Below are positions 4,709 through 36,713 of a stretch of DNA of 36,918 nucleotides, piece after piece; within the stretch, counting starts at the first letter, position 1, and the number at the start of each line of letters is the position of its first letter. Under the pieces are notes generated by a model. That model made no database searches. It saw only the letters and a list, made by a program, of their open reading frames with translations, and had not been told where the DNA came from. The translations under genes were made by a program, and so were the position numbers. The stretch spans positions 1 through 36,918 of the forward strand of contig CAMYJO010000023.1 of the NCBI GenBank assembly GCA_947258755.1, in the 5' to 3' direction. The stretch comes from an uncultured Gammaproteobacteria bacterium (GTDB lineage: Bacteria; Pseudomonadota; Gammaproteobacteria; JAADHQ01).

Positions 4709-4797
4709 GAATGTCTCCTCAGACGTGTTCATTATTACCGGTCATAACGAGAATTCATGCCGGCCCATTAAGTTGAGCCACAAAGCTTAGTCAGCGA

Positions 4798-5149: not shown

Positions 5150-5204
5150 AGAGTCGTAACCCAATATGAGAACACTGGCGTGTATTGATACAAGGACATT
5201 TCGT

Positions 5205-6419
5205 ATGAGAATACTCATGATTTCTGATGTTTATTACCCACGTATCAATGGCGTTTCCACCTCAATACATAGTTTCCGCAATTACCTGTCACAGGCCGGT
5301 CATGAAGTAATCCTGCTCGCACCTGAATATAACAACCGAACTGCTGACGATCCTGATGACATTATCCGCATCCCGTCGCTGCCAGTTATTTTCGATCCGG
5401 AAGACAGATTTATGCGCGCAGGAAAGATTCGCAAGCTGGTGCCTAGATTGAAGCAATATAATTTTGACATCATCCACATCCAGACCCCCTTCGTTGCACA
5501 TTACCTTGGCTTGCATCTGGCGCGTGAATTGGGCATAGCCTGTATTGAAACCTATCACACTTTCTTTGAAGAATATCTGTACCACTATATTCCACTGGTT
5601 CCGAGAAGCTGGCTGCGCACACTGGCTCGCAACTTCAGCACACGTCAATGCAATCGTGTCGACCATATCATCGTGCCATCGACCGCTATGCAACAAACGC
5701 TGATGGATTACGGCGTCAAGACAGAAATGACTATCCTGCCAACCGGCCTTGAGCAGCAAGCATTCCAGACGGGCGACGGTGAACGTTTTCGACGTCAATA
5801 TAATATTCCGCCGGACAGACCGGTGTTGCTCAATGTCAGCAGAATCGCACATGAAAAAAACATCGACTTTCTTATCAGGATGTTGACCCATGTCTGGCAG
5901 GAAATACCGAATGTGCTGTTGATCATCACTGGTGACGGATCGGCGAAAAAACACTTGCAAAGACTAAGTAAAAAGCTAGGGCTGGAAGACAATATTATGT
6001 TTATCGGCTACCTGGATCGCGAAAAGGAATTATCTGACTGTTATTGTGGCAGTGACATCTTTATCTTTTCGTCGCGTACAGAAACCCAGGGCCTGGTGCT
6101 GCTGGAAGCGATGGCACTCGGTGTACCGGTTATTTCCACAGCCATCATGGGTACCAGGGATATTTTACAGGACAATCCCGGTGCCATCATCGCCGATGAG
6201 GACGAAGTAAAATTCGCTTGCAAGGTCAAGCGCTTGTTATCCAATGACATGCAACGTAAGGAACTGGGTCAGCAGGCACGACTAGCCGCGCAACAATGGT
6301 CAGCCGAGATCATGAGCGGACGCATGTGGCAACTATACTGTAAAGTTAGCGGCATTGATCCGCTTGATACTAAGCGGAATACGATTGCGCGAAAGGCTAA
6401 ATTCCTGACCCCGACCTGA
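5205..6419 (+). CDS. GT4 glycosyltransferase, probable diacylglycerol glycosyltransferase
   Basis: From the ATG at 5205 (AAGGA 8 nt upstream; the in-frame ATG at 5166 lacks one and precedes the GT-B fold) the protein has 404 residues. The N-terminal Rossmann half begins MRILMISDVYYPRINGVS, with the glycine-rich acceptor loop and a YHTFFEEY segment typical of diacylglycerol-glucosyltransferase-like GT4 enzymes. The C-terminal half contains LPTG, GDGS and the nucleotide-sugar signature ETQGLVLLE (EX7E). Such enzymes transfer a hexose from UDP- or GDP-sugar to lipid acceptors at the inner membrane surface. It converges on the agt-plcP operon with a 25-bp gap and has its own Pho-box-like repeats. 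I infer a second glycolipid synthase or a second-sugar transferase; polysaccharide assembly is the alternative. Confidence 0.75.
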   Translation: MRILMISDVYYPRINGVSTSIHSFRNYLSQAGHEVILLAPEYNNRTADDPDDIIRIPSLPVIFDPEDRFMRAGKIRKLVPRLKQYNFDIIHIQTPFVAHYLGLHLARELGIACIETYHTFFEEYLYHYIPLVPRSWLRTLARNFSTRQCNRVDHIIVPSTAMQQTLMDYGVKTEMTILPTGLEQQAFQTGDGERFRRQYNIPPDRPVLLNVSRIAHEKNIDFLIRMLTHVWQEIPNVLLIITGDGSAKKHLQRLSKKLGLEDNIMFIGYLDREKELSDCYCGSDIFIFSSRTETQGLVLLEAMALGVPVISTAIMGTRDILQDNPGAIIADEDEVKFACKVKRLLSNDMQRKELGQQARLAAQQWSAEIMSGRMWQLYCKVSGIDPLDTKRNTIARKAKFLTPT

Positions 6420-6444
6420 CAAGCACATACAGTGGCCTACCAGC

Positions 6445-7452
6445 CTAGGCGGAATCCATGATGGGCTCAAGATGTCCGATAAACTGCTGTGTACAATCCA
6501 GCCAGGTATGGCTCAATGCATAGGCGCGTGGCGCCTCCCTGTCCAGTTCCAGCGCCTGTATGGCGGCCTCCCCCAGATCATCTCGCATGACGCCAGTCAC
6601 GCCCTGTTGAATAACATCGATCGGCCCCGTTACCGGGTAGGCGGCCACTGGCACACCACAAGCCATGGCCTCCAGCATAACCAGGCCAAAGGTGTCAGTT
6701 CTGCTTGGAAAAACAAACACATCAGCGGAAGCCAACAGCCCGGCCAGCTCCTTGCCATATTTAAAACCTGTAAACACGGCATCGGGGTATTTGCCTTTAA
6801 GTGTATGCATATCCGGGCCATCACCGACAACATATTTTTTCCCGGGTAAATCAAGCTGCAGAAAACTGTCCAGGTTTTTTTCCACCGCGACCCGGCCGGT
6901 ATACATGAATACCGGCCCGTCATCGTTGCTCAATTCACGCTCTCGCGGCTTGAATAGTGTTGTATCAACCCCGCGGGACCAGATCATGACGTTACGGAAT
7001 CGCCACTGCTCCAACTCCTTACGCTGTGACTCGGAAGGCACCATGGTCCTGACAGCCGGTGAATGAAACCAGCGCAGAAAGGCATATGTCCAACTCAATG
7101 GAATCGGCGCGCGCATACGAACATACTGTGGTGATTGCGTATGGTACGAAGTGGTAAACGGCACACCTTTGCGAATGCAATAGCGGCGTACTGCGAGGCC
7201 AACAGGACCCTCGGTCGCGACATGCACCGCATCCGGCTGGTATTGATCCAACATCCTGCGCGTCTGACGTCCGGGTAAAATAGCCAAACGTATTGATTTA
7301 TATGTTGGCAGTGGAATCGACTTAAAAGGTTCCGGCGTCAGGAACAGGACTTCATGCCCAAGGGATTCAAGCATCTGTGCCGTTGTTCGCAATGTCGTCA
7401 CCACGCCATTGGTTTGTGGCAGCCATGCATCAGTGGCAATGGCTATTTTCAT
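6445..7452 (-). CDS. agt: Agt-like GT4 glycosyltransferase of phosphate-starvation lipid remodelling
   Basis: The start at 7452 gives 335 residues beginning MKIAIATDAWLPQTNGVVTT; its ATG overlaps the plcP stop codon (ATGA), so the two are translationally coupled. The fold is GT-B with acceptor region TSYHTQSPQYVRMR in the N-terminal half and DTFGLVMLE in the C-terminal half, an EX7E motif with Asp in place of the first Glu. In marine alphaproteobacteria and others, Agt glycosylates the diacylglycerol made by PlcP to give monoglucosyl- or glucuronosyl-diacylglycerol, replacing phospholipids when phosphate is scarce. Synteny with plcP is the main support for this role; the sugar donor cannot be read. 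An upstream GTG extension to 7518 would lie inside plcP and is rejected. Confidence 0.8.
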   Translation of the reverse strand: MKIAIATDAWLPQTNGVVTTLRTTAQMLESLGHEVLFLTPEPFKSIPLPTYKSIRLAILPGRQTRRMLDQYQPDAVHVATEGPVGLAVRRYCIRKGVPFTTSYHTQSPQYVRMRAPIPLSWTYAFLRWFHSPAVRTMVPSESQRKELEQWRFRNVMIWSRGVDTTLFKPRERELSNDDGPVFMYTGRVAVEKNLDSFLQLDLPGKKYVVGDGPDMHTLKGKYPDAVFTGFKYGKELAGLLASADVFVFPSRTDTFGLVMLEAMACGVPVAAYPVTGPIDVIQQGVTGVMRDDLGEAAIQALELDREAPRAYALSHTWLDCTQQFIGHLEPIMDSA

Positions 7453-8264
7453 GCAATTTGTCGCCCTTCCTCTTCTGCAGAGGGATGACTTTTCATCGAC
7501 TGCATCTGATCTGACCAATGCAGTATTTCCAGGGTGCCATCCTGGTGTTCAACCATGGCCGTACAACTTTCGACCCAATCACCATCATTGCAGTACAGTA
7601 CATCATTTATTTTTCTGATCTCCGCATGATGGATATGCCCGCACACCAGACCATCGACATTGCGTCGGTCGGCTTCATGGGCCACGGCCTTTTCAAAATT
7701 ACTGATCACATTCACAGCGTTTTTAACTTTATGTTTGAGATAGGCGGAAATCGACCAGTAAGGAAACCCGAGCCGGCGACGAACAACATTGACCCACCTG
7801 TTCAGATAGAGCAGGAAATCATAGGCGGTATCGCCCAGGTAACCAACCAGGCGACTACAACGAATCACGCTGTCGAACTCATCGCCATGCAACATCAACA
7901 GGCGTCGACCGTCTGCGGTTTCATGAATGTAGTCCTGGTGAATCTCAACATTACCGAACACCTGGCCGGCATAGTCGCGTAGAATCTCGTCGTGGTTGCC
8001 GGGTATGTACACCACCCGGGTACCATGTTTGGCCTTACCCAGAACGGTCCTGATGACATTATTGTGTGCTTGCGGCCAATACAAACCCCTGCGTTTCATT
8101 GACCAGATATCGATGATATCTCCGACCAGATAGAGATTTTCGCATTCTGTCGAGCGTAAAAAATCAAGCAGGTAGTCGGCCTTACAACCACGATAACCAA
8201 GGTGAATATCAGAGAGCCAGATCGTACGATAGCGTAGCGGACGCATTTGATGAACCGAAGCCAT
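7449..8264 (-). CDS. plcP: PlcP-like phospholipase C (calcineurin-type metallophosphoesterase)
   Basis: The 271-residue protein carries all five calcineurin-fold metal-binding blocks in order: SDIHLGY, VGDIIDIW, GNHDE, LHGDEFD and CGHIHHAE. The start at 8264 has GGGAG upstream. It belongs to the COG2908 group that contains both LpxH and PlcP. It lacks the compact LpxH N-terminus and has the ...LYWPQAHN... and YLKHKVKNAV insertions of the PlcP branch. PlcP cleaves phosphatidylcholine and other phospholipids to diacylglycerol plus a phosphorylated head group under phosphate limitation. The overlap with agt, the neighbouring phoBR and an upstream Pho-box-like site all point to this role and not lipid A synthesis. 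An LpxH function is the main alternative. Confidence 0.8.
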   Translation of the reverse strand: MASVHQMRPLRYRTIWLSDIHLGYRGCKADYLLDFLRSTECENLYLVGDIIDIWSMKRRGLYWPQAHNNVIRTVLGKAKHGTRVVYIPGNHDEILRDYAGQVFGNVEIHQDYIHETADGRRLLMLHGDEFDSVIRCSRLVGYLGDTAYDFLLYLNRWVNVVRRRLGFPYWSISAYLKHKVKNAVNVISNFEKAVAHEADRRNVDGLVCGHIHHAEIRKINDVLYCNDGDWVESCTAMVEHQDGTLEILHWSDQMQSMKSHPSAEEEGRQIA

Positions 8265-8372: not shown

Positions 8373-9671
8373 CTATGCTACTTCTCGCTCCATGATCAGG
8401 CTACTGGGGAAATGGCAACGGAAGGTGCTGCCCTTGTCAACCTCACTATCGATCTCGAGTGTAGCATCATGACGTCCTAACACATGCTTGACGATGGCCA
8501 GACCAAGTCCTGTCCCGCCAGTCGCACGCGAACGCCCAACATCCACCCGATAGAAACGTTCGGTCAAACGCGCTATATGCTGCGGCGCAATACCTACACC
8601 GGTATCTTGCACTTCAAAATGAGCACCCTGCTCATCAGCATACCAACGTATATTGATATCACCGCCTTGCGGTGTATATTTCACCGCATTGTAAATCAGA
8701 TTGGAAAAAACGCTGACCAGTTCTTCGCTGTTGGCACGCAGGCACAACTGCGGGTCTGAATCGAGCGTGATGGTATGACGGCCATGACTGAGGGACTCAC
8801 CGTCCTCCTTGGTCATTTTCAACATCGCCGGTACATCGACGGTCTGTTTCTTATTGGTTTTTTCTTCTGTTTCAAGACGCGACAACAGCAGCAAATCAGC
8901 AACGATATTCTGCATGCGCATAGACTGTTGCAACATAGCCTTGAAGCTACCTTCATTTTCACGCACCCAGTCCTCATCATCTTCGAGCATCGACTCAAGG
9001 TAACCGGAAATCACCGTTAACGGGGTGCGCAATTCATGCGAGACATTGGCAATAAAGTCCTGTCGCATCTGCTCAAGTTTATGCAAACGACTGATGTCAC
9101 GCACCATCAATAAACGCTGATTCTTTCCATAGGGAACCACCCTGATAGACAGTTGCACGTCCTCATTAAAAGGCGAAGGCAGTTGTAGATTATTGGTATA
9201 TTCATCGCTATTCAGATATTGGATGAATTGCGGCTGACGCATCAGGTTGGTAATGGGCCGATGTGCGTCCTGTTTGCGTAGCTTAAGCAGTTTTGCAGCT
9301 GTCTTGTTCCAGTTTTCGATATTACCATTGACATCCAGGACCACGGCAGCATCCGGCAGGGCATTGGTTGATTCACGAAAACGGTTTACCATCGACGCTA
9401 ATCTTTTCTTGCGGCGACGATTACGCTGCTGTAGACGATACAGATGGTGATAAACATCGGCCCACGCGCCCTCGACAGCATGGGGTATACCCGCACGCTT
9501 ACCCTGCAGCCACTGATCCAGTCGGTACAGATTGCGTAAGTGCCAGATCAGGTAGATCGAGATAATGAAAAACAGTGTCCAGGCGACATTACCGATCGCA
9601 GCGCCGATCAATAATCCCAGCAACATAAGCCCCACTAATCGCCAAATTTCTGTAGACCAGGAACTTCCCAC
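8373..9671 (-). CDS. phoR: Phosphate regulon sensor histidine kinase PhoR
   Basis: The 432-residue protein has an N-terminal membrane hairpin (residues ~11-44), then a PAS-like sensing domain (~95-195), the dimerisation/phosphoacceptor helix with FIANVSHELRTPL (His212) and a complete HATPase_c domain (NLIYNAVKYTP, DTGVGIAP, GTGLGLAIVKH). The short cytoplasm-facing architecture without a periplasmic loop is that of PhoR, which senses phosphate through Pst/PhoU contact and phosphorylates PhoB. The start is a GTG at 9671 with AAGGG five bases upstream. It lies 150 bp downstream of phoB on the same strand, with its own candidate promoter and a hairpin in the gap. Directly downstream comes plcP-agt. 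Confidence 0.95.
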   Translation of the reverse strand: MGSSWSTEIWRLVGLMLLGLLIGAAIGNVAWTLFFIISIYLIWHLRNLYRLDQWLQGKRAGIPHAVEGAWADVYHHLYRLQQRNRRRKKRLASMVNRFRESTNALPDAAVVLDVNGNIENWNKTAAKLLKLRKQDAHRPITNLMRQPQFIQYLNSDEYTNNLQLPSPFNEDVQLSIRVVPYGKNQRLLMVRDISRLHKLEQMRQDFIANVSHELRTPLTVISGYLESMLEDDEDWVRENEGSFKAMLQQSMRMQNIVADLLLLSRLETEEKTNKKQTVDVPAMLKMTKEDGESLSHGRHTITLDSDPQLCLRANSEELVSVFSNLIYNAVKYTPQGGDINIRWYADEQGAHFEVQDTGVGIAPQHIARLTERFYRVDVGRSRATGGTGLGLAIVKHVLGRHDATLEIDSEVDKGSTFRCHFPSSLIMEREVA

Positions 9672-9822: not shown

Positions 9823-10518
9823 TCAGGTCTGCTCGGAAAAACGATAGCCGGCACCGCGTACCGTCTGAATCATTTTATCGCAACCGTGGGTAGCCAGCTC
9901 CTTGCGCAGGCGCCTGATATGCACATCGACAGTACGCTCTTCAATATACACATTCTGACCCCAGACCCGGTCCAGCAATTGCTCACGACTATAAACGCGT
10001 TCCGGATGGGTCATGAAAAAATGCAATAAACGAAACTCAGTGGGGCCCAGGCTGACTTTCTCCCCTTCAAAACCGACCCGATGCGTGCTCGGATCCAGCT
10101 CCAGCCCACGCATACAAAGACCGGCATCGTCCTGTTGTGGTTCGGCCCGGCGCAGCACGGCATTAATGCGCGCAATCAGTTCACGGGTCGAGAAGGGTTT
10201 GGTGACATAGTCATCAACACCCACTTCAAAGCCACGCAACTTGTCGCCCTCTTCCGCCCGCGCCGTCAACATGATGATCGGTATCGATTTGCTAAGCTCA
10301 TCACGCTTGAGTCGACGCGCGAGGTCCACGCCGCTAATATCCGGCAACATCCAGTCCAGCAGGATCAGGTCGGGCTTGGACTCAGCAATACGGCTCATGG
10401 CCTGCATAGAATCTTCGGCCAACATCAGCCTAAAGCCGGTGCGCTTGAGGGCAAACTCAACCATATCCAGGATGGCCGGTTCATCGTCTACGACCAGAAT
10501 GTATTTTTCTTCAGACAT
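9823..10518 (-). CDS. phoB: Phosphate regulon response regulator PhoB
   Basis: From the ATG at 10518 the protein has 231 residues. The receiver domain contains the acidic pair DDE (11-13), the phosphoacceptor Asp55 in LILLDWMLP, and the conserved T and K (MLTARAEEG, DDYVTKPF). The OmpR/PhoB-type winged-helix domain follows, with GPTEFRLLHFFM and the recognition segment RTVDVHIRRLRKEL. The C-terminus VRGAGYRF is typical. PhoB dimerises on phosphorylation and binds Pho boxes upstream of -10 elements. A TTG at 10533 is possible but the ATG fits family length better. A three-unit Pho box lies just upstream, indicating autoregulation. phoR follows on the same strand, and other window promoters may be targets. 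Confidence 0.96.
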   Translation of the reverse strand: MSEEKYILVVDDEPAILDMVEFALKRTGFRLMLAEDSMQAMSRIAESKPDLILLDWMLPDISGVDLARRLKRDELSKSIPIIMLTARAEEGDKLRGFEVGVDDYVTKPFSTRELIARINAVLRRAEPQQDDAGLCMRGLELDPSTHRVGFEGEKVSLGPTEFRLLHFFMTHPERVYSREQLLDRVWGQNVYIEERTVDVHIRRLRKELATHGCDKMIQTVRGAGYRFSEQT

Positions 10519-10551
10519 AGCATCAATATTCAATTGTTAAATACATGTCAT

Positions 10552-10585
10552 ATTTAATGACAATAATATTACAGCCATATGACAG
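10552..10585 (-). promoter_or_regulatory. Pho box and promoter of phoB (autoregulatory)
   Basis: Reading the reverse strand, three half-sites are in 11-bp phase: CTGTCAT (7/7), CTGTAAT (6/7) and TTGTCAT (6/7), spanning 10557-10585. Ten bases after the second unit comes TTAAAT (10552-10557, 4/6 of -10). This is the best-formed site in the window and matches the known autoregulation of phoB. Confidence 0.75.
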
Positions 10586-23855: not shown

Positions 23856-23887
23856 ATGCTTAAGCCTTGCAACGAGACATTGACCGC

Positions 23888-24622
23888 ATGCCTTATAAAC
23901 CCGACCAATTTCATATTTCTGAAAACGCGGATCGGCTTTTTCTCGAATGTGCAGAGAATATTGTCGAGTATGCCAGACAATGCGTCAAGGAACATGGCTC
24001 GTTCAGCATGGCGCTGGCCGGTGGCTCCACACCAAAACAACTATACCTGCAACTTTCCACTAGTCCATTGTTAGAGCAAATGCCGTGGGCATCCTGTCAG
24101 TTCTATTTTGGCGATGAACGCATGGTAGCACATGATCATACCGACAGTAATTACGCCATGGCTAAGCAAGCGCTGTTTGAGCGCGCGCCCGTTGCCGCCG
24201 AAAACATACACCCTATGCCTACCGACTGTACCCAGGCGGCGGACTGCGCTGCTAAATATCAGCGACAGATAACAGACGCCACACCATTTGACCTGGTCTT
24301 ATTGGGAATGGGGCCGGATGGTCACACGGCATCCTTATTTCCCGATACCGATATCCTGACGGAAAATAAAAAGTCGGTTGCTGCAGTCTACGTAGACAAA
24401 TTGGCCGCCTGGCGAATTAGCCTGACCTTTGCCTGTATCAATCGCAGTAAACGCGTCATCGTCCTGACGCAGGGCAAAGGAAAAAAAGATATTATTCAAG
24501 AGATACTCTACGGTGATACACCACAACAATATCCGATAACAGGCATACGCCCAGCCGGGCTGCTAAGCTGGTACCTTGATAAGGACGCCCTTCCGCAACA
24601 TGCCAATAACGAGGCACCTTAG
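23888..24622 (+). CDS. pgl: 6-phosphogluconolactonase
   Basis: The 244-residue DevB/SOL-type protein carries SMALAGGSTPKQLY, the DERMVAHDHTDSNYAMAK catalytic region and GMGPDGHTASLFPDT. It hydrolyses 6-phosphogluconolactone in the oxidative pentose phosphate or Entner-Doudoroff route, between the zwf and gnd products encoded further along. ATG 23888 is chosen; an in-frame TTG at 23867 would add 7 residues and is less likely. It is divergent from mpl and upstream of ppx. A chemically unrelated YbhE-type lactonase is not seen. Placement next to ppx instead of zwf is less usual but the cluster still groups sugar-phosphate and polyphosphate genes. Confidence 0.93.
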   Translation: MPYKPDQFHISENADRLFLECAENIVEYARQCVKEHGSFSMALAGGSTPKQLYLQLSTSPLLEQMPWASCQFYFGDERMVAHDHTDSNYAMAKQALFERAPVAAENIHPMPTDCTQAADCAAKYQRQITDATPFDLVLLGMGPDGHTASLFPDTDILTENKKSVAAVYVDKLAAWRISLTFACINRSKRVIVLTQGKGKKDIIQEILYGDTPQQYPITGIRPAGLLSWYLDKDALPQHANNEAP

Positions 24623-24702
24623 GAAGCCTCGGTGACTGGCACAAACAAAGTCTCATCTGTTAATATATAAACTTAGCAAAGCACGAGTAGTCATAATATA
24701 AA

Positions 24703-26193
24703 ATGCACAATATATTTGCAGCGATTGACTTGGGTTCAAACAGCTTTCATATGATTGTCGGACAACATAAATCCGGACAAATCATCATCCTGGATAAATT
24801 GCGTGAAATGGTCCGACTGGCTTCAGGTCTGGACGAACACAAGAACATCTCACCCGAAGTCATGCAGAAGGCCCTCGACTGCCTGTCACGCTTTGGCGAA
24901 AGGATACGGCACCTGCATGCCGATGTAGTCCGCATCGTCGGCACCAATACACTGCGTCAGGCACGCAACTCTGCTGAATTTATGCACAAAGCCGAAGCCC
25001 TCCTCGGCCACCCGATCGAAATTATTTCAGGTATGGAAGAAGCCCGCCTGATCTATTCAGGCGTGTCGCATAATGTCGATGTCGATAATGGCAAACGCCT
25101 GGTCGTTGATATCGGTGGCGGTAGCACCGAGATCATTATTGGCGAACGTTTCCAACCTTTAATGATGGAAAGTCTGTACATGGGCTGCGTCAGCATGACC
25201 AAGCGTTTTTTTGCCAGCGGCAATATCACCAGCAAGAAACTCGACAAGGCAAAAATGTATACCATGATGGAGCTGGAACCACACATCAAGGCCTACAGGA
25301 AACTAGGCTGGGATGATGCCATAGGTGCTTCCGGCACCGCCAGAGCACTGCGCAGCATTGCTCTGGAAGAAGGCTTGACCGACTATGGTATTACCAAGAA
25401 GGCGCTGAAAGAAATTCTGGAAAAATTACTGCAAGCAGGCAGTATTGACAACATCTCCCTGAAAGGTCTGAAGTCCGAGCGCAAACCCGTCATTCTTGGC
25501 GGCGCGATAGTGTTGAGTGCCATTTTCGAGGCCTTTGACATCAAGACAATGACAGTATCCGGTGGCGCCTTGCGTGAAGGCATCCTGTATGATCTCATCG
25601 GTCGCGGTGAAAACCAGGATTCACGTTCAGAAAGTGTCGAGACGTTTGCGCGACGCTTTGTCGTTGATCACGCCCATAGTGAACGGGTTGTCGATACTGC
25701 CACACTGTTATTAAAACAGGTCAGCGACGACTGGTTTGATCAGGACAATCAGGAAGAGGCAGAAAAACATCTAGGCTGGGCGGCACGCCTGCACGAAGTG
25801 GGACTGTGTATCGCGCATAGTCAGTATTATGCACATGGGGCCTATATGGTGGGACAGGCCGACCTGATGGGTTTTTCAAGGCAGGACCAGAAACTACTGG
25901 CGGCCATGATACAACTCCACAGACGTACAATACGCATGGAACTGTTTGATGATTTTGATTCTGGCAATAAAAAAATGGGCAAGCGCTTGCTAATCCTGTT
26001 GCGACTTGCGGTACTGCTGAACAGAAGCCGAGCCGATAGCCCGCCACCACTACCCGAGATTGCAGTAGATAAAAAATCTATATCCCTGACATTCAAAGAT
26101 GACTGGTTACAACAGCACCCGCTGACGCAAAGTGACCTGGAATCCGAGATTAACTACCTGGACAAGGCCGGCTACCAGCTAAGCATCGGGTAA
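24703..26193 (+). CDS. ppx: Exopolyphosphatase (Ppx/GppA family)
   Basis: The 496-residue protein begins IFAAIDLGSNSFHMIVGQ, the first phosphate loop of the actin-like ASKHA fold, with the second VVDIGGGSTEIIIGE and the third GGAIVLSAIFEAF. The C-terminal HD-like helical domain is present, so the length is that of E. coli Ppx. It removes terminal phosphates from inorganic polyphosphate; GppA (pppGpp hydrolase) is the near relative. Linkage with ppk1 supports Ppx. It converges on ppk1 with only 20 bp between the stop codons. There is no Shine-Dalgarno and a CATAAT (24692-24697) lies 5 nt before the ATG at 24703, so this mRNA may also have a very short leader. Confidence 0.93.
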   Translation: MHNIFAAIDLGSNSFHMIVGQHKSGQIIILDKLREMVRLASGLDEHKNISPEVMQKALDCLSRFGERIRHLHADVVRIVGTNTLRQARNSAEFMHKAEALLGHPIEIISGMEEARLIYSGVSHNVDVDNGKRLVVDIGGGSTEIIIGERFQPLMMESLYMGCVSMTKRFFASGNITSKKLDKAKMYTMMELEPHIKAYRKLGWDDAIGASGTARALRSIALEEGLTDYGITKKALKEILEKLLQAGSIDNISLKGLKSERKPVILGGAIVLSAIFEAFDIKTMTVSGGALREGILYDLIGRGENQDSRSESVETFARRFVVDHAHSERVVDTATLLLKQVSDDWFDQDNQEEAEKHLGWAARLHEVGLCIAHSQYYAHGAYMVGQADLMGFSRQDQKLLAAMIQLHRRTIRMELFDDFDSGNKKMGKRLLILLRLAVLLNRSRADSPPPLPEIAVDKKSISLTFKDDWLQQHPLTQSDLESEINYLDKAGYQLSIG

Positions 26194-26213: not shown

Positions 26214-28319
26214 CTAGTGCTTGGACAGGTCTTCCAGCAATTGTGTCTGCGCACTGAAAGCTGGATTATCATCAGTATAGCGACAGTAGTTACCATCCGG
26301 CATTAATACCCAGCTCTGGGTATTGTCTTTCAGGTAATAGTGTAGCTGCTTGCTAATCATGTTGCTGATACGCTTGGTCTGAATTGGAAAACAAACTTCA
26401 ACACGCTGCACCAGATTTCTCTCCATCCAGTCGGCACTGGCACAATAGACCTCCGGAGAGTCATCATTCTGAAAATAGAATACGCGAGTGTGTTCGAGAA
26501 AGCGACCGACGATAGAACGCACTGTTATGTTTTCAGAGACACCCTCAATCCCAGGACGTAGACAGCAAACTCCGCGCACAATCAGATCAATCTCGACACC
26601 GGCAATCGAAGCGCGGTAAAGCGCTTGAATCATCTTCACCTCGGTCAAGGCATTCATCTTGGCGATGATGCGTGCCGGCTTACCTTTACTGGCATTGTCT
26701 GTTTCACGATCGATCTTTTTCAACAGAGCTGTATGCAAGGTAAAAGGCGACTGCAGCAATTTGTGTAATTTGGACACTTTACCCAGGCTGGTCAATTGCA
26801 TGAACACCTTGTGCACGTCCTCACCAATTTGTTGGTCGCTGGTAAACAGCCCATAGTCAGTATAGAAGCGGGTCGTACCCGGGTGATAATTTCCGGTCCC
26901 CAGATGCACGTAGTTTCGTAGTACCTTGCCTTCACGGCGAACCACCAGTGCCATTTTCGCATGTGTCTTGTAGCCAACGACACCATAGACCACATGGGCA
27001 CCCGCCTCCTGCAAACGGTTGGCCAACGCGATATTATCGGCCTCATCAAAACGCGCCCGCAGCTCAATAACAACCGAGACCTCTTTTCCCGAGCGTGCAG
27101 CCTCAACCAGCGCATCGACGATGCTTGATTTAGGGCCGGTGCGATACAAGGTTTGCTTGATCACCAGGACTTTTTCGTCAGACGCGGCCTTATGCAGGAA
27201 ATCCACGACCGGCACAAACGATTCAAACGGATGATGCAACAGGATATCCTGTCGACGTAATACAGAAAAAATGTCCGCACCACCGGCAAGCTTGACCGGT
27301 ATACTCGGCGTAAACGGTTTGAAACGCAGATCCGGCCTGTCTTCCAGGTCACATAACTGCATCAGGCGGTTCAGGTTTACAGGTCCATTAACCTTATAGA
27401 TCTCATCTTCGTCGAGTTTAAAGTTTTTACGCAGGAAATTGACTACATCTTCAGGGCAGTCACTATCAATCTCCAGCCTGACCATGTCACCATAGCGCCT
27501 GGATAACAACTCACCTTCCATCGCCCGCAACAGGTTTTCAACTTCCTCGGCATCCACAAACAAATCACTGTTGCGAGTGGCGCGAAACTGAAATGAACCC
27601 TTGACCTTCATACCATGAAAAAGCTCATCAACATTTTCATGTATGATAGACGACAGAAACACAAAGTCCTGCTTACCCGTTCCTTTAACGCTTTCGGGGA
27701 TCTTGATCAAACGTGGCAACGAACGCGGCGCTTGAACAACGGCCATATCACAACTGCGACCAAAGGCATCCTTACCTTCCAGGGAGATAACAAAAGATAA
27801 ACTTTTATTAAGGATTCGCGGGAACGGGTGCGCCGGATCCAAGCCCATCGGCGTTAACACCGGTAACAGTGAATCCTGGAAATAGCGATAAAGCCATTCG
27901 GCCTGATCTTTATTCCAGTCACTACGCCGAATAAAACGAATATCTTCTTTTTCCAGTTCAGGCAACAGTATCTCATTGAGTATGCGATATTGTTCATCAA
28001 CCAGTTCCACAGCGCGGATACGTATTTCTTTCAGTGCTTCCTGGGCTGTGCGTCCATCGTCACTGACATTGCCTAAACCCAATTCCGCCTTGTGCTTCAA
28101 CCCGGAAACACGAACCTCGAAGAATTCATCCAGGTTGGTACTGGAAATACATAGAAAACGCAGGCGCTCCAACAATGGCGCCTGCTCGTCCATGGCTTGC
28201 TCAAGCACACGACGATTAAATTCCAGCAGACTTAACTCGCGGTTAAGAAACAACTCGGGGGACTTCAGGTCTGTATTATTTTGCTCCGACATATGCTCTT
28301 GATCTTCGTTTAATGCCAT
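26214..28319 (-). CDS. ppk1: Polyphosphate kinase 1
   Basis: The ~701-residue protein has the PPK1 domain order: N-terminal helical domain from LFLNRELSLLEFNRRVLEQA, middle domain, and the two phospholipase-D-like C-terminal domains. The latter show ELRARFDEADNI and the active-site region HLGTGNYHPGTTRFYTDYG with its phosphorylated His, then a second domain with ...IVRGVCCLRPG. It makes polyphosphate reversibly from ATP. Three starts are possible (28331, 28319, 28292); 28319 is a compromise because the domain begins later and each ribosome-binding site is weak. It converges on ppx and a Pho-box-like site lies ~36 bp upstream, overlapping the stop of the gene before it. Confidence 0.95.
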   Translation of the reverse strand: MALNEDQEHMSEQNNTDLKSPELFLNRELSLLEFNRRVLEQAMDEQAPLLERLRFLCISSTNLDEFFEVRVSGLKHKAELGLGNVSDDGRTAQEALKEIRIRAVELVDEQYRILNEILLPELEKEDIRFIRRSDWNKDQAEWLYRYFQDSLLPVLTPMGLDPAHPFPRILNKSLSFVISLEGKDAFGRSCDMAVVQAPRSLPRLIKIPESVKGTGKQDFVFLSSIIHENVDELFHGMKVKGSFQFRATRNSDLFVDAEEVENLLRAMEGELLSRRYGDMVRLEIDSDCPEDVVNFLRKNFKLDEDEIYKVNGPVNLNRLMQLCDLEDRPDLRFKPFTPSIPVKLAGGADIFSVLRRQDILLHHPFESFVPVVDFLHKAASDEKVLVIKQTLYRTGPKSSIVDALVEAARSGKEVSVVIELRARFDEADNIALANRLQEAGAHVVYGVVGYKTHAKMALVVRREGKVLRNYVHLGTGNYHPGTTRFYTDYGLFTSDQQIGEDVHKVFMQLTSLGKVSKLHKLLQSPFTLHTALLKKIDRETDNASKGKPARIIAKMNALTEVKMIQALYRASIAGVEIDLIVRGVCCLRPGIEGVSENITVRSIVGRFLEHTRVFYFQNDDSPEVYCASADWMERNLVQRVEVCFPIQTKRISNMISKQLHYYLKDNTQSWVLMPDGNYCRYTDDNPAFSAQTQLLEDLSKH

Positions 28320-28338
28320 GTTCCGTATCATTAAAAAA

Positions 28339-28372
28339 CAGATAACATGACTTGATGACTATTTCGTGACAA
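28339..28372 (-). promoter_or_regulatory. Pho-box-like promoter of ppk1
   Basis: On the reverse strand TTGTCAC-GAAA-TAGTCAT (28355-28372) has two half-sites at 11-bp phase with 6/7 and 5/7 matches. Ten bases later comes TATCTG (28339-28344, 3/6 of -10). The site straddles the last codons and stop of the DUF4442 gene, so part of its sequence is constrained by coding. Confidence 0.45.
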
Positions 28373-28766
28373 ACCAGTGATAAATGGCGTGGGTTGTTAC
28401 TTCACCGGCTGCTGTCTTTAGTTTAACATCTACCGCGACCAGTGCGCGACCCTTGGCCAGCAATTGTTTTTCCAATTTTTCTTCATCAGCCTGCTCAATA
28501 GAGGGGAAAGCGATCAGCGTAGAATTTACCGGCTTACTGTATTTTATCTCGGCTCGCCTGACCACGGCAAGCACCTGCCCCTCCCATGCTGGAAAACGCT
28601 GGCGCAAGTAATCGCCGCTACTGATCTCGGCCAGCGCGAATTGTGCACTCGCATGCATATTACCGACATGATTCTGGACCTGTTCGGTGAAAGGCAGTTG
28701 TAATAACGGACCTTCGGGTTCGCGCTCAATGCCCAGAAGGCGCGCAAACATAACATCCTTGCTCAT
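28359..28766 (-). CDS. DUF4442-like hotdog-fold protein
   Basis: The chosen ATG at 28766 gives about 135 residues; a GTG at 28775 is the alternative. The segments HVGNMHASAQFALAEISSG and VDVKLKTAAGEVTTHAIYHWFV fit the DUF4442/YiiD-C hotdog fold, related to acyl-CoA thioesterases such as PaaI, with substrate unknown. The gene begins 16 bp after the zwf stop and ends 40 bp before ppk1, so it belongs to a gnd-zwf-this-ppk1 run. Position between carbon flux and polyphosphate genes gives no further clue to function. No signal peptide is present. Confidence 0.65.
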   Translation of the reverse strand: MSKDVMFARLLGIEREPEGPLLQLPFTEQVQNHVGNMHASAQFALAEISSGDYLRQRFPAWEGQVLAVVRRAEIKYSKPVNSTLIAFPSIEQADEEKLEKQLLAKGRALVAVDVKLKTAAGEVTTHAIYHWFVTK

Positions 28767-28782
28767 GAGGCCCACTTTTGCT

Positions 28783-30264
28783 TCAGGATTCTTCCTCTAT
28801 CGCGTTTCGCCAGTATTGGTCTTCACGATCAAAGACCCGGTTGGCCTCTTGCGGCCCCCAGCTGCCTGCCGGGTAGGTATGGATATAATCACGCTCCGTT
28901 GACCATACCTTTAATACTGGATCCATGACATCCCAGGCCCATTTGATTTCGTCATAACGCAAAAACAGGGAATGATCATCCTCGATGGCGTCCAGCAACA
29001 GGCCTTCATAGGCATCGATCTTGATATCCGATGACAGCCCGGAACTGGCATCCAATTGCGTTGTTTGAGTCAATAATTCAAGACCATTTTTCTTCGTCTG
29101 CATCTCCATACGCAGGCACTCATTCGGCTGTATACCCAACATAATCCAGTTCGGCTTTAATTGCTCTATCTGCGATTGACGAAATAATTGTTGCGGCGGA
29201 TGCTTGAAACGAATACTGATCAAAGAACTATTCTGCGCCATGCGTTTACCGGTACGCAAATAAAACGGAACATTGCGCCAACGCCAGTTATCGACATAGA
29301 GCTTAAGTGACGCAAAGGTTTCCGTGGTACTCATCGGCGGAATATCTTTTTCTTCAAGGTATCCGGCCAGTTTGTCGCCATCCACATTACCGGAGGCGTA
29401 TTGGGCACGAAATGCGTGCGCATGCACGGCATGCTTGGGGATAGGGCGGATAGACTTAAGCACCTTAACCTTTTCATCACGTAGGGACTCGGCATCAAGA
29501 GCTGGCGGCGGCTCCATCGCCACCAGCGTTAACATTTGCAGCAAATGACTTTGCAACATATCGCGTAATGCGCCCGCTTCGTCATAATATCCGGCACGGC
29601 CCTCGATGCCCTGGCTTTCCGAATGCGTTATCTGGATATGATCAATATAGTTTCGGTTCCACAAGGGCTCCAGCATCAGGTTGGCAAAACGAAAAACCAG
29701 TACGTTCTGTACCATGCTCTTGCCCAGGTAGTGATCGATCCTGAAGATCTGGCTTTCCTTGAAATTCCTGTGTAGTGCCTGCTCCAGGATTTGCGCACTC
29801 TCACCATCATAACCAAACGGTTTTTCGATAATCAGTCTGCGCCAGGCATGCTCCTCATTATTCAGGCCTGCCTCGCTCAGCGAATGTCCTACGCGACCAT
29901 ATTCGGACGGCGGTATCGATAGGTAAAAAAGCACATTGGGACTAAACTGAGCGTCGTTGCTGACCAGTTCGGCAATTTGATTATAGGTCTGCTGCTCATG
30001 AAGATCACCGCTACGGTAATGCAGACGCTCGGCCAGCGCCGCAAACACCTCTTCATTCAATGATCCGCGTGCGCGTGATTGCAATAAGTCGCGTACATAT
30101 TCATGCCATTGTTCGCGCGAATATTCCTTTCTACCCATGCAGATAATCGTCATGCCATCTGATAACTTGCCGGATTCCTGTAAATGATACAGTGCTGGCA
30201 ATAATTTGTTACGGGCAAGATTACCGGTTGCACCAAAGATTACGAATGTACATGACTCACTCAT
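28783..30264 (-). CDS. zwf: Glucose-6-phosphate 1-dehydrogenase
   Basis: The 493-residue protein begins with the NADP-binding [16 protein letters not shown], then [13 protein letters not shown], and the substrate/active-site signature [13 protein letters not shown]. The length and tail ...[13 protein letters not shown] are standard. It oxidises glucose-6-phosphate to the lactone hydrolysed by Pgl. A RBS (AGGTG, 7 nt) precedes the start. gnd lies 18 bp upstream, so gnd-zwf are an operon, with the DUF4442 gene and ppk1 probably in the same run. Confidence 0.97.
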
Positions 30265-30282
30265 AAGAAAACACCTATTCAG

Positions 30283-31194
30283 TTATTTTTTTTCTTTGAC
30301 CAAATGACCGCCAAAAGCATTACGCATCATGGATAACAGCCGATTGCCATAGCCTTCCTGGTCCTGACTGCTAAAACGCATTTGCAAGGCCAGGGCCAGC
30401 ACCGGCGCTGCAACGCCCTGGTCGATCGACTCTACTACAGTCCAACGCCCTTCACCGGAGTCGGCCACAAAGGGCTCGATATCTGCAAGCTGCTGGTCTT
30501 CAGAGAGGAAATCGGCCATTAGATCCAGCAACCAACTGCGCACCACTGAACTGTGTCGCCACAGTTCCGAGATTTGCGCCATATCCAGATTGAATTCTTC
30601 TTTACCACGCATCAATGCAAAACCTTCTGCAAAGGCCTGCATCATCCCATACTCGATACCATTATGAATCATTTTGGTAAAGTGACCGGAGCCAACGGGG
30701 CCGACGTGCGCCCAACCCCTGTCTTCGGCTGGTGCCAATGCTTTCAATGCGGGCTCTATTTGTTTGACCACATCATCTTCACCACCGACCATCAAGCAAT
30801 AACCGTTTTTCAGACCCCATACACCACCCGAGGTGCCGGCATCAACAAAACCGATGTCGCTTTTGGCGAGCATGGCCGCATGGCGCTGACTGTCATGATA
30901 ATTGGAATTACCGCCATCAATAACGATATCACCCGCCTCCAGCATCGACGCCAGCTCATGTAACGCGCTATCGGTGGGGGCGCCACTAGGAATCATCAGC
31001 CACACAACCCGCGGAGCCTGTAGCTGTTGCACGGCATGTAACATGGAGTCAGCAGGTAACATACCCTCCTCCGCTGCCAGCTCTTCAGTAATTTCAGGCG
31101 TGCGATTATAGCCAACCACTTCAACGCCGTTGCTGATTAAACGGCGCGCCATGTTTGCCCCCATCTTACCCAATCCTATTAACGCCAATCGCAT
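30283..31194 (-). CDS. gnd: 6-phosphogluconate dehydrogenase, decarboxylating (short form)
   Basis: The 303-residue protein begins MRLALIGLGKMGANMARRL, a Rossmann dinucleotide site. It contains the substrate region DAGTSGGVWGLKNGYCLMVGG and the catalytic GSGHFTKMIHNGIEYGMM. It has the short, ~300-residue form of Gnd (as in YqeC/GntZ types, often NAD-preferring), and not the ~470-residue long form. It oxidatively decarboxylates 6-phosphogluconate to ribulose-5-phosphate. GAGGAG lies just upstream of the ATG. A short dyad (31228-31243) precedes it. The genes pgl, zwf and gnd together complete the oxidative pentose phosphate branch. Confidence 0.95.
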   Translation of the reverse strand: MRLALIGLGKMGANMARRLISNGVEVVGYNRTPEITEELAAEEGMLPADSMLHAVQQLQAPRVVWLMIPSGAPTDSALHELASMLEAGDIVIDGGNSNYHDSQRHAAMLAKSDIGFVDAGTSGGVWGLKNGYCLMVGGEDDVVKQIEPALKALAPAEDRGWAHVGPVGSGHFTKMIHNGIEYGMMQAFAEGFALMRGKEEFNLDMAQISELWRHSSVVRSWLLDLMADFLSEDQQLADIEPFVADSGEGRWTVVESIDQGVAAPVLALALQMRFSSQDQEGYGNRLLSMMRNAFGGHLVKEKK

Positions 31195-31635: not shown

Positions 31636-33075
31636 TCAATGCAGTTGATCATAAAGCTGAATATATTCACGCGCACTATGGTCCCAGGAAAAGTCACGCC
31701 ACATCGCAGTGATTTGCAACTTCTTCCAGACCAGGTCTTCATTATAGTACTTTAAGGCGTGACCCAAGGTCTGCACCAGATCGCTCGGGCGGTCGCCACT
31801 AAAAACAAAACCATTGGCCTCGCCGTTAGCCAAGGTATCGGCATCGGTGTTGACCACGGTATCGGCAAGGCCGCCGACCTTGCGCACCACCGGCAAGGTA
31901 CCGTAATGCAAACTGTACATCTGATTAAGGCCGCAGGGTTCAAACCGGGACGGCATCAAAAACAGATCGGATCCAGCTTCTATACGATGCGCGAATGCTT
32001 CATTGTAGCCAATCGTTACCGCAATACGACCTGGGTACTTTTTTGCGAAACGTAACAATGCCTGTTGATAGTCTTCTTCGCCGCTGCCTAAAAAGATCAA
32101 CTGTATCGGCAACTGCATGATGTCATCGATCGCCTCAAGGATAATATCGATGCCCTTTTGGTACACCAGCCTGCCAATAAAACCCGCCAGCGCCACATCG
32201 TCTTTGCGCAAAGCAGAACTTTGCTGCAAGGCCTTCTTATTTAATTGTTTATACTCAACGTTACGCACACTATAGGGCTCGAGAATCAACGGGTCGGTTT
32301 CCGTATTCCAGACATCGGTATCGATACCATTGACTATGCCGCTCAGTGAAGCAGACCGATGCTGCAACAGCCCCTCCAGACCATAACCAAACTCCTGCGT
32401 CTGGATCTCTTTGGCATAGGTAGGACTGACCGTGGTTATTTTGTCGGCATAGACCAAACCACCTTTGATAAAGGATAGCTGGCCATGAAATTCAAGCCCA
32501 TCATGTGACCATAGACTGTCTGGCAAATCGAGTTCAACGAAATTGGCATGCGGGAACAGGCCCTGATAGGCCATATTATGAATAGTGAACACGGTCGGTG
32601 GCGCCTGCTCTTCCAATGACAACAAGGCGGGCACCAGTCCGGTTTGCCAGTCATTACAATGGATGATATCCGGCTTCCATTTCAAGCTAGTACGTCGCAT
32701 GGCAATTTCGACAATAACGCGACAAAACAGATCAAAGCGAGCGGCGTTATCCGACCATGGCTGGCCATCAGGACCCATGTACGGGTTACCGGCACGAGTG
32801 AACAAAGCGGGAAAATCGACCAACCAGACTTTAACAGAACTACCCGGTAGGTCGCCCATTAATATCCTGACCTTACCCTGCGGCATATCTAATCGGGCCA
32901 TGCAGCGTGTTGGCCCCATATTGTCTATAACTTCGGGATAGGCTGGCAGGATAATACGCACGTCCTGCCGCAGTGCGCACAATGCTCGCGGCAAGCTACC
33001 GGCAACATCAGCAAGACCACCCGTCTTCACCAGCGGAAACACCTCGCTGGAAGCAAATAACACCTTGCGCAGCAT
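31636..33075 (-). CDS. glgA: Glycogen synthase (ADP-glucose type)
   Basis: The 479-residue GT5 protein begins KVLFASSEVFPLVKTGGLADVAGSLPRAL, with the KTGGL ADP-glucose-binding loop. It contains HCNDWQTGLVP, GFIGRLVYQKG and the C-terminal SRFEPCGLNQMYSLHYGTLPVVR. It elongates alpha-1,4-glucan chains from ADP-glucose. Its ATG overlaps the glgB stop by one base (TGATG), so glgB and glgA are translationally coupled on the reverse strand. glgC, which supplies ADP-glucose, lies divergently upstream of glgB. No terminator is evident after the stop. Confidence 0.97.
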   Translation of the reverse strand: MLRKVLFASSEVFPLVKTGGLADVAGSLPRALCALRQDVRIILPAYPEVIDNMGPTRCMARLDMPQGKVRILMGDLPGSSVKVWLVDFPALFTRAGNPYMGPDGQPWSDNAARFDLFCRVIVEIAMRRTSLKWKPDIIHCNDWQTGLVPALLSLEEQAPPTVFTIHNMAYQGLFPHANFVELDLPDSLWSHDGLEFHGQLSFIKGGLVYADKITTVSPTYAKEIQTQEFGYGLEGLLQHRSASLSGIVNGIDTDVWNTETDPLILEPYSVRNVEYKQLNKKALQQSSALRKDDVALAGFIGRLVYQKGIDIILEAIDDIMQLPIQLIFLGSGEEDYQQALLRFAKKYPGRIAVTIGYNEAFAHRIEAGSDLFLMPSRFEPCGLNQMYSLHYGTLPVVRKVGGLADTVVNTDADTLANGEANGFVFSGDRPSDLVQTLGHALKYYNEDLVWKKLQITAMWRDFSWDHSAREYIQLYDQLH

Positions 33076-35261
33076 CAGACTTTCTTAAAGACCACTGCAG
33101 ATAAAGGTGGCAGTGTTATATTTATGGAGTCCTGCCGGTCCATCCATGCCACCGCCTCACTGTGAACACCGCCATCGTTGCCAACATTACTGCCACCATA
33201 TATTTCTGAATCTGAATTGAGTATTTCCTGATAGTAACCGGGTTCTGGTACTCCCAGACGATACTGTTTTCTCGTCACCGGGGTAAAATTAAGTACGACC
33301 AACATGCATTCATCATCCGCACGACGCACATAACTCAAGACTGACTGCGCCGCATCATGGCAATCAATCCATTCAAAGCCGTGGCTATCGAAATCAAATT
33401 TATACAGCGCATTATTATTGCAATATACCTTATTAAGATCGGCAACGAGACGCTGTATCCCTTGATGCAAGGCATAGTCCAGCACATACCAATCCATTGT
33501 TTTGTCGTGATCCCACTCGCTACCCTGGCCAAATTCACAACCCATGAACAACAGCTTTTTACCCGGATAGGTAAACATATAGCTGTAAAGCAGTCGTAAA
33601 TTTGAAAAGCGCTGCCATTCATCTCCGGGCATTTTATTTAACATTGAGCCCTTGCCATGGACAACCTCATCATGCGAGAAAGGCAACAGGAAATTCTCGG
33701 TAAAGGCATATAGCAGACCAAAGGTCAGCTGGTCATGATGATAGTGACGGTATACCGGGTCCTGATGCATATATTGCAAGGAATCATGCATCCAACCCAT
33801 ATTCCACTTCATCGAGAATCCCAGCCCCCCTAACCAGACAGGACGTGTCACCTGCGGCCAGGACGTGGACTCTTCAGCTATCACCATCGTACCGGGATGC
33901 TCGGCATGGGTAACAGTATTCAACTCACGAACAAAATCGATGGCCTCGAGATTTTCATTACCGCCATGAATATTTGGCAACCAGTCACCGTGCTCGCGTG
34001 AGTAATCCAGATACAGCATCGATGCGACCGCATCGACGCGCAGGCCATCGATATGAAACTCCTGCAACCAGAACAGGGCGCTGGACAACAGAAAGTTCCT
34101 AACCTCATTACGTCCGTAGTTATAAATCAGTGTGCCCCAGTCACGGTGTTCACCTCGGCGTGGATCTTCATGCTCATACAAGGGGCTACCATCGAAACGG
34201 GCCAGACCATGGCTGTCTTTCGGAAAGTGTGCCGGCACCCAGTCGAGGATCACGCCGATGCCAAAGGCATGGCAATAATCGACAAAATAACGAAAGTCAT
34301 CCGGCTCACCAAAACGTGACGTTGGTGCAAAATAGCCGGTTGTCTGATAACCCCAGGAGGCGTCCAGCGGATGCTCGGTAATCGGTAATAACTCGATAAA
34401 ATTAAAACCCAGCGGTAACAGATAATCCACCAGGCGTTGCGCCAATTCGCGGTAGTCTAAAAATTCACCATTCTCATCGCGCTGCCATGAACCCAGATGG
34501 ACCTCGTACACCGACATCGGCTCATGCAGCCAGTCTTTGTGTACACGCTGCTCCATCCAGAATGTATCCAACCACTGATATTCATTGGCATGTACGACCT
34601 TCGAGGCTGTATGCGGCCGCCGCTCAAACTGCTGTGCATAGGGATCGGTTTTCAGATGGATGCTGCCGCTCTCACGATGACGAATCTCGTATTTATACAG
34701 GTCACCCGCAGTCAGTCCTGGCACAAACAGCTCCCAGACCCCACTGTCACCACACGAGCGCATCGGTCGACTGCGGCCGTCCCACACATTGAAATCGCCG
34801 ACCACACTGACCCTTTCCGCATTAGGTGCCCAGGTCGCAAACAGTACCCCACTAACACCATCTACTTCACGTAAATGAGAGCCCAGGTGTTGATACAGAT
34901 GCCAATGCTTACCTTCACCAAACAGGTGCAAGTCAAAATCTGACAGAATTGGTGCGAATGTATAAGGATCTATGTAACTGTAGACATGCCCACTGCTATC
35001 CGTGCAGTGCAACCGATAGTGGTCCGGCAGGGCACGGGTATCACCGCTCCATTCGAAAATATCGGTGTCTGCAAGCCGCCGCATGGGCCTGGTATTATCC
35101 TCAATCTGCACACTTGCTGCACCAGGAACGAACACGCGCACCTTGCCTTGCGCACCAATAATGACCTTACCCAGTACTGAAAAAGGGTCATGCTGACTGC
35201 CATGTAGTAGACGCCTCAGGGCAGGATCCAAGGCAGTAGCTGATTTATCGGTTGTTAACAT
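33075..35261 (-). CDS. glgB: 1,4-alpha-glucan branching enzyme
   Basis: From ATG 35261 (AGGA, 5-nt spacing) the protein has 728 residues, the same as E. coli GlgB; an upstream start at 35300 would add 13 unlikely residues. It has the N-terminal and CBM48 domains (residues ~20-220), then a GH13 barrel with [23 protein letters not shown] (nucleophile Asp), [10 protein letters not shown] (acid/base Glu) and [12 protein letters not shown]. It makes the alpha-1,6 branches of glycogen. It is translationally coupled to glgA and divergent from glgC across ~180 bp with a strong Pho box. Confidence 0.97.
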
Positions 35262-35300: not shown

Positions 35301-35318
35301 CTGTCATACAGATGTCAT
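35301..35318 (+). promoter_or_regulatory. Strong Pho box between glgB and glgC
   Basis: CTGTCAT-ACAG-ATGTCAT (35301-35318) has one perfect and one 6/7 half-site at 11-bp phase. It points toward glgC, ~127 bp before that start codon, and is 39 bp upstream of the glgB start on the other strand. No good -10 follows at the usual distance, so its role as a classical activator site is not clear. Confidence 0.5.
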
Positions 35319-35444
35319 ATTGTAAGCAACAAACGAGCCAAACAAAATTTTTTGTATCCATCTGTTATCTTGTCGGAATATCCAGTATCTTACTCATATT
35401 AGACCCAAGTTATCAAATCCAGCCCACAGGGAGCTTTTCATTCA

Positions 35445-36713
35445 ATGAAGCCTGAACTACAACCTCGCTTTATCAGCCTTCTAACCCGAGACACCATGGC
35501 ACTAATCCTTGCCGGTGGGCGTGGATCACGCCTAAAGCAGCTGACCTACTGGCGCGCGAAGCCCTCGGTACCCTTCGGCGGTAAATTCCGCATTATCGAT
35601 TTCCCACTATCGAACTGCGTTAACTCAGGGATTCGTCGTATTGGCGTCATCACCCAGTATAAAGCGCATTCCCTGATCCTGCATATCCAGCAAGGCTGGG
35701 GGCATCTACGCGGCCAGTTTGGCGAATTTGTTGAGCTATTACCTGCACAACAGCGTATCGAAACCTCATGGTACCAGGGAACAGCCGATGCGGTTTACCA
35801 GAATCTGGATATCATACGCAATCACGATCCCTCCTATGTCCTGATCCTCGCCGGTGACCATATTTATAAAATGGACTATGGTCCGATGCTAGCTACACAT
35901 GTAGATCGAGAAGCCGACATGACCATCGGCTGCATTGAGGTGCCCTTAGAAACGGCACGCGAATTCGGCGTCATTGGCATTAATGAAAGCGAGCGCATAC
36001 ACAGCTTCAGCGAAAAACCCGATAACCCGGAACCCATACCAGGCAAACCTGATACCGCACTGGCCTCGATGGGCATTTATATATTCAATCGTGACTTCCT
36101 GTTTGAACAATTGATCAAGGATGCAGACAATAATAGATCAAGCCATGACTTCGGTAATGACCTGATTCCGTCCGTAATCAATAGATACAAGGTCTACTCC
36201 TACTCATTCCTTGACCCGAAAACACAGCAACATGCCTTCTGGCGTGATGTCGGAACAGTCGACGCCTTCTGGGAGGCAAACCTGGAATTGATCGGCGTGA
36301 CCCCGGAGTTAAATCTATATGACAAGGAATGGCCTATCTGGACCCATCAGGAACAACTACCCCCGGCAAAGTTCGTTTTTGATGATAATGACCGCCGTGG
36401 TATGGCTGTTGATTCGATGGTCTCCGGTGGCTGCATTATTTCCGGCGCGATTATCAGGCATTCCTTATTGTTTTCCAACGTCACCGTACACTCGCATTCG
36501 CATATAGAAAACTCCGTTATTCTGCCTGATGTTAGCATAGGTGAACATTGCAAGATCCGCGATGCAGTCATCGATAAAGGCTGTGTAATACCCCAGCATA
36601 CGGAGATTGGCATCAACCGGGAACAGGATGAAGCACGCTTTCACATTACTCCAAAAGGCATCGTGCTGGTGACACCCGAAATGCTGGGGCAGGAATTACA
36701 TTATGTCAGATAA
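35445..36713 (+). CDS. glgC: Glucose-1-phosphate adenylyltransferase (ADP-glucose pyrophosphorylase)
   Basis: The 422-residue protein has [16 protein letters not shown], the pyrophosphorylase loop, [20 protein letters not shown] and the C-terminal left-handed beta helix ending ...[10 protein letters not shown]. It makes ADP-glucose from glucose-1-phosphate and ATP, the committed step of glycogen synthesis. The N-terminal arginine/lysine residues (RGSRLKQL) are those linked to allosteric control by sugar phosphates in gammaproteobacterial GlgC. Its 3' end overlaps the next gene by 11 bp. AGGGAG lies before the start, at an 11-nt spacing that is a little long. Confidence 0.97.

Follow-up and report, generated by a model that had tools for sequence, protein, structure and literature searches.

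A candidate PhoB-responsive promoter region between the divergent glycogen genes glgB and glgC of a gammaproteobacterium

The window analysed here, that is, the whole stretch of 36,918 nucleotides, belongs to a 3.2 Mb genome whose nearest relatives are Gammaproteobacteria. In it the genes for glycogen branching enzyme (glgB) and ADP-glucose pyrophosphorylase (glgC) diverge from a gap of 183 bp, with the ATG of glgB at 35261 on the minus strand and the ATG of glgC at 35445 on the plus strand. A sequence-only reading of this DNA had placed a Pho box between divergent glg genes, and family scans agree with that arrangement. No RNA element or tRNA was found in the gap, and no intrinsic terminator was found near it. 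The features that concern us are listed by position.

8373-9671, minus strand: phoR, sensor kinase of PhoB (TIGR02966 and PRK11006, over cut-off)
9823-10533, minus strand: phoB, the regulator expected at the candidate boxes (TIGR02154, over cut-off)
10557-10585, minus strand: the phoB Pho box, made up of three half-sites in phase; a positive control
31636-33075: glgA, following glgB (GlgA by family scan)
33075-35261, minus strand: glgB, glycogen branching enzyme (NCBIfam PRK05402, over cut-off)
35301-35318, plus strand: CTGTCAT-acag-ATGTCAT (CTGTCATacagATGTCAT), the Pho box of the sequence-only reading, species-specific and proposed as an accessory PhoB site
35327-35400: conserved block of the gap, a probable promoter region (60 of 74 bases, or 81%, identical in the sister species G002)
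35351-35368, plus strand: phased half-sites TTTGTAT-ccat-CTGTTAT (TTTGTATccatCTGTTAT), a genus-conserved Pho-motif position from the four-genome footprint
35379-35384, plus strand: TATCCA, a poor -10-like hexamer located from the alignment, 17 nt past the start of the second half-site
35387-35416, minus strand: TTGATA-18-TAAGAT, a possible sigma-70 promoter toward glgB (consensus match only; 1 found against 0.7 expected in shuffles)
35445-36713, plus strand: glgC, ADP-glucose pyrophosphorylase (NCBIfam TIGR02091 and PRK00725, over cut-off)

The two proteins expected of any genome with a Pho regulon, PhoB and PhoR, are both encoded in the window, where family scans also put PhoU, polyphosphate kinase, and exopolyphosphatase. 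Adjoining phoR-phoB are genes for a calcineurin-like phosphoesterase (7449-8264) and two GT4 glycosyltransferases (5166-6419 and 6445-7518), a cluster (5166-8264) that is kept together in the related genomes G002 and G001 and looks like the cassette of PlcP and glycolipid glycosyltransferases that acts in lipid remodelling under phosphorus deficiency (PMC4796936). A Porin_4 family porin (3638-4732), encoded between phoU and the glycosyltransferases and present in G002 too, might be a phosphate-starvation porin. Genes for a phosphate transporter of the pstS-pstC type (L164, G000:C19:40846-44738) lie off the phoU-phoR-phoB contig, preceded by a conserved CTGTAGTaaaaCTGTAAC box with TATAGT after it. 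The genome also encodes a second divergent GlgC homologue, 48% identical, at G000:C25:47477-48676; G002 has one as well, and no Pho box with two or fewer mismatches was found near the copy at G000:C25:47477-48676.

The box at 35301-35318 consists of two CTGTCAT-like 7-nt direct repeats at the 11-bp pitch of a Pho box, CTGTCAT at 35301-35307 (7 of 7) and ATGTCAT at 35312-35318 (6 of 7), both on the plus strand. The perfect and 6/7 half-sites in phase that had been reported are therefore exact in sequence and position. The box is oriented toward glgC and lies 39 nt before the start codon of glgB. Scored with a Pho motif matrix that was written by hand from the Escherichia coli consensus before relatives were scored, it reaches 18.6 bits, which was equalled in 6 of 20,000 dinucleotide shuffles of the gap. 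Genome-wide, the motif shows no excess, either at one mismatch or fewer (3 sites against 2 for the reversed control motif) or at two mismatches (29 against 28), and the string by itself is therefore weak evidence; what is unusual about it is its placement within a promoter gap. Across the class (56 genomes), near-perfect Pho sites exceed the control, with 63 against 19 among the matches listed. The only perfect Pho box of the host genome, CTGTCATcataCTGTCAT at G000:C2:14249-14266 (L001, L163), precedes the gene of a large ATPase, of SbcC type by eye and not an obvious phosphate gene, and follows a small gene of cupin-like type. Also as reported, no usual -10 element follows the box at 35301-35318: the hexamer 17 nt past the start of its second half-site is ACAAAC, and the best -10 score at the spacing of PhoB-activated promoters is -1.1 bits.

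Conservation was compared over four genomes of the genus, including that of the host. In the nearest sister species, G002, whose GlgC is 87% identical, 9 of the 18 bases of the 35301-35318 box are kept, much as in the flanking background, and the Pho score at the aligned place drops to 2.6 bits. The box is also absent from the aligned place in G001 and G003, and so close relatives do not keep it in front of their glgC; from this alignment it is private to its own species. By contrast, two Pho boxes taken as positive controls do persist: all four genomes retain that of phoB, and in G002 the pstS box and its TATAGT are almost unchanged. The box had been called strong, which holds for the match itself but not for its conservation in the sister species. 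A Pho-like site in G002 (CTGTCATcatgTTGCTAT) was set aside because it overlaps the glgB start codon.

Summed over the four-species alignment, the Pho-motif score peaks at a single outstanding position, 35351-35368, with 48.5 bits from these four genomes of one genus. This position lies within the conserved block 35327-35400, 50 bp downstream of the upstream box and 76 nt before glgC, and has half-sites that are shared with relatives, phased at an 11-bp pitch, and directed toward glgC. None of 300 column-permuted motifs reaches the same sum (the highest gives 34.7), and other half-site spacings give 20.3 bits or less; because column-permuted motifs benefit equally from conservation, they control for it. 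The site reads TTTGTATccatCTGTTAT in the host, TTGATATccttCTGTTAT in G002, TTTTCATattaCTGTCAT in G003, and ATGTTATataaATTTAAT in G001. The G002 and G003 boxes score 14.7 and 16.5 bits, and shuffling the respective gap gives such a score less than once in 1000 times. The G001 box is weak (7.4 bits), and the host box is degenerate, with 9.9 bits and a shuffle p that varies with the stretch tested, from 0.019 to 0.07. Because the box is weak in the host species alone, the evidence for this position comes from the set of species. All four genomes have a TATnnA hexamer 17 nt past the start of the second half-site (TATCCA in the host, with TATCTA and TATTTA among the relatives), where the place is right and the match is poor.

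The most serious alternative is that the 35301-35318 box has no function, being a chance or transient match, and that the conserved block is simply the core promoter region of glgC and glgB, in which Pho-like letters occur by accident. This explanation accommodates the absence of the box from relatives, the lack of a genome-wide excess of the motif in the host, and the weakness of the shared box in two of the four species. It has difficulty, however, with a footprint that none of the 300 permuted motifs reproduced despite being equally favoured by conservation, and with the boxes directed toward glgC that three of the four species carry in the glgB-glgC gap, each at a shuffle p below 0.001. 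We consider it unlikely, while giving it appreciable weight. The idea that non-conservation of the upstream box refutes a link to phosphate was dropped in view of the four-genome footprint.

The divergent arrangement of glgB and glgC is common in the class, and we assembled a panel of 162 non-redundant glgB-glgC gaps, excluding that of the host. Toward glgC, 6 of the 162 gaps have a box of at least 14 bits, where shuffles give a mean of 0.35 and other half-site spacings 0 to 3. Raising the threshold to 16 bits leaves 4 gaps, where shuffles give 0.08 and other spacings 0 to 1. These matches are partly related: the host genus accounts for two of them and a single family for another two. Boxes directed toward glgB show a smaller excess, with 2 gaps at 14 bits and none at 16. 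The -10 offset was rejected as a discriminator in this panel, offsets of 12 to 29 giving similar counts. In one group of three (L239, L241, and L025), TTATACTGTCATTT falls within the longest stretch of the gap that does not vary, and two members have TATAAT or TAAAAT at +17, which looks like a near-textbook PhoB promoter for glgC. Most gaps of the panel have no Pho box, and the Pho wiring of glgC is therefore scattered. We tentatively suggest that in several gammaproteobacterial lineages PhoB could activate glgC directly at the divergent glgB-glgC promoter, through sites that turn over rapidly, a dedicated transcriptional link by which phosphate starvation would channel carbon into glycogen.

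A second alternative is that PhoB at 35301-35318 mainly affects glgB, the box lying in the glgB leader where bound protein could block transcription. The box does sit between the possible glgB promoter (35416-35387) and the glgB start, and no -10 for glgC is found at the expected distance from it, but the promoter call is no better than chance, the excess toward glgB in the class panel is weak, and the box itself is oriented to glgC; we regard this as improbable. The sequence-only reading had allowed for an accessory or a repressor role, of which the accessory role fits these data, while repression, though possible, is unsupported. Equally improbable, if not slightly more so, is use of the conserved position by a different OmpR-family regulator that recognizes similar 11-bp direct repeats: the genus encodes several further response regulators of this kind and the conserved half-sites depart from CTGTCAT, but the matrix was built on the PhoB consensus and recovers the phoB boxes of the genus.

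The neighbouring polyphosphate genes had been offered as an argument for phosphate control of glycogen. This argument is weak, since no Pho box with two or fewer mismatches was found before ppk or ppx. The best match near ppk, TTGTCACgaaaTAGTCAT at 28355-28372 on the minus strand, scores 12.7 bits and ends 24 nt before the ppk open reading frame. Its first half-site encodes the last residues of the upstream DUF4442 product, so that the match overlaps the 3′ end of that gene. G002 and G001 keep part of the match, and TATCTG lies 17 nt past the start of the second half-site in the host and G002. As many as 13 of 300 permuted motifs score as well as its footprint. With no box of two or fewer mismatches and a best match that does not pass the permutation control, Pho control of ppk or ppx was rejected as support. 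In this part of the window, gnd, zwf, the DUF4442 gene, and ppk form a tight run on the minus strand (26214-31194) and pgl and ppx lie together on the plus strand (23867-26193), so that pentose-phosphate and polyphosphate genes are interleaved.

The reading that we favour, by a modest measure, is that the glgB-glgC gap is a predicted PhoB-responsive promoter region mainly serving glgC. PhoB control of glgC is plausible on the same footing, somewhat better than an even call, with the 35301-35318 box as a species-specific accessory site. Under phosphate starvation, phosphorylated PhoB would bind the strong upstream box and also the weak promoter-proximal box at 35351-35368, perhaps aided by the upstream one. 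From the proximal box it could recruit RNA polymerase to glgC, and activation of glgC would then yield more ADP-glucose and glycogen at a time when growth halts and carbon is left over. The box at 35301-35318, having no -10, may have been acquired in this species as an accessory site that perhaps offsets decay of the proximal box, and a strong box without a -10 beside a degenerate shared box would represent binding-site turnover. Activation would also make metabolic sense, since building glycogen sets phosphate free from sugar phosphates and puts carbon into store once growth has stopped for lack of phosphate. Phosphate shortage thus probably influences glycogen storage in this species, as had been proposed, although the support comes mainly from the 35351-35368 footprint and related genomes and not from the site originally named, which none of the sister species keeps. 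If true, this model would place the first committed step of glycogen synthesis under direct PhoB control, explaining carbon storage under phosphate limitation at one promoter, and would offer a clear example of regulatory-site turnover within a genus.

In the literature searched, which was largely that outside subscription journals, we found no description of divergent glgB and glgC genes with a PhoB-type promoter in their gap, and other links are indirect; on the sequence evidence above, glgC would be a new member of the Pho regulon. A link between phosphate and glycogen is known in general from reports on Streptomyces and Salmonella. In Streptomyces coelicolor the phosphate regulator PhoP also acts on glycogen metabolism, but it represses glycogen catabolism (cited in PMC4415409), whereas here synthesis would be activated, and the lineage is unrelated and has another box consensus. 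In Salmonella at low phosphate, proteins of glycogen metabolism are raised (cited in PMC12351708), in the same direction as proposed here; that paper does not mention a Pho box at glgC. The glg genes of enteric bacteria form an operon, glgBXCAP (PMC4301808), in contrast to the divergent glgB and glgC described here. The closest comparison is with the promoters of E. coli phoA and of phoB in the host genus, which likewise have two 7-nt half-sites at an 11-bp pitch directed toward the gene. The TATnnA at +17 of the conserved position corresponds to TATAGT in E. coli phoA and TTAAAT in the host phoB. The glgB-glgC gap differs from these promoters in that its target is a glycogen gene, its strong box lacks both a -10 and conservation, and its conserved box is degenerate and followed by a poor -10.
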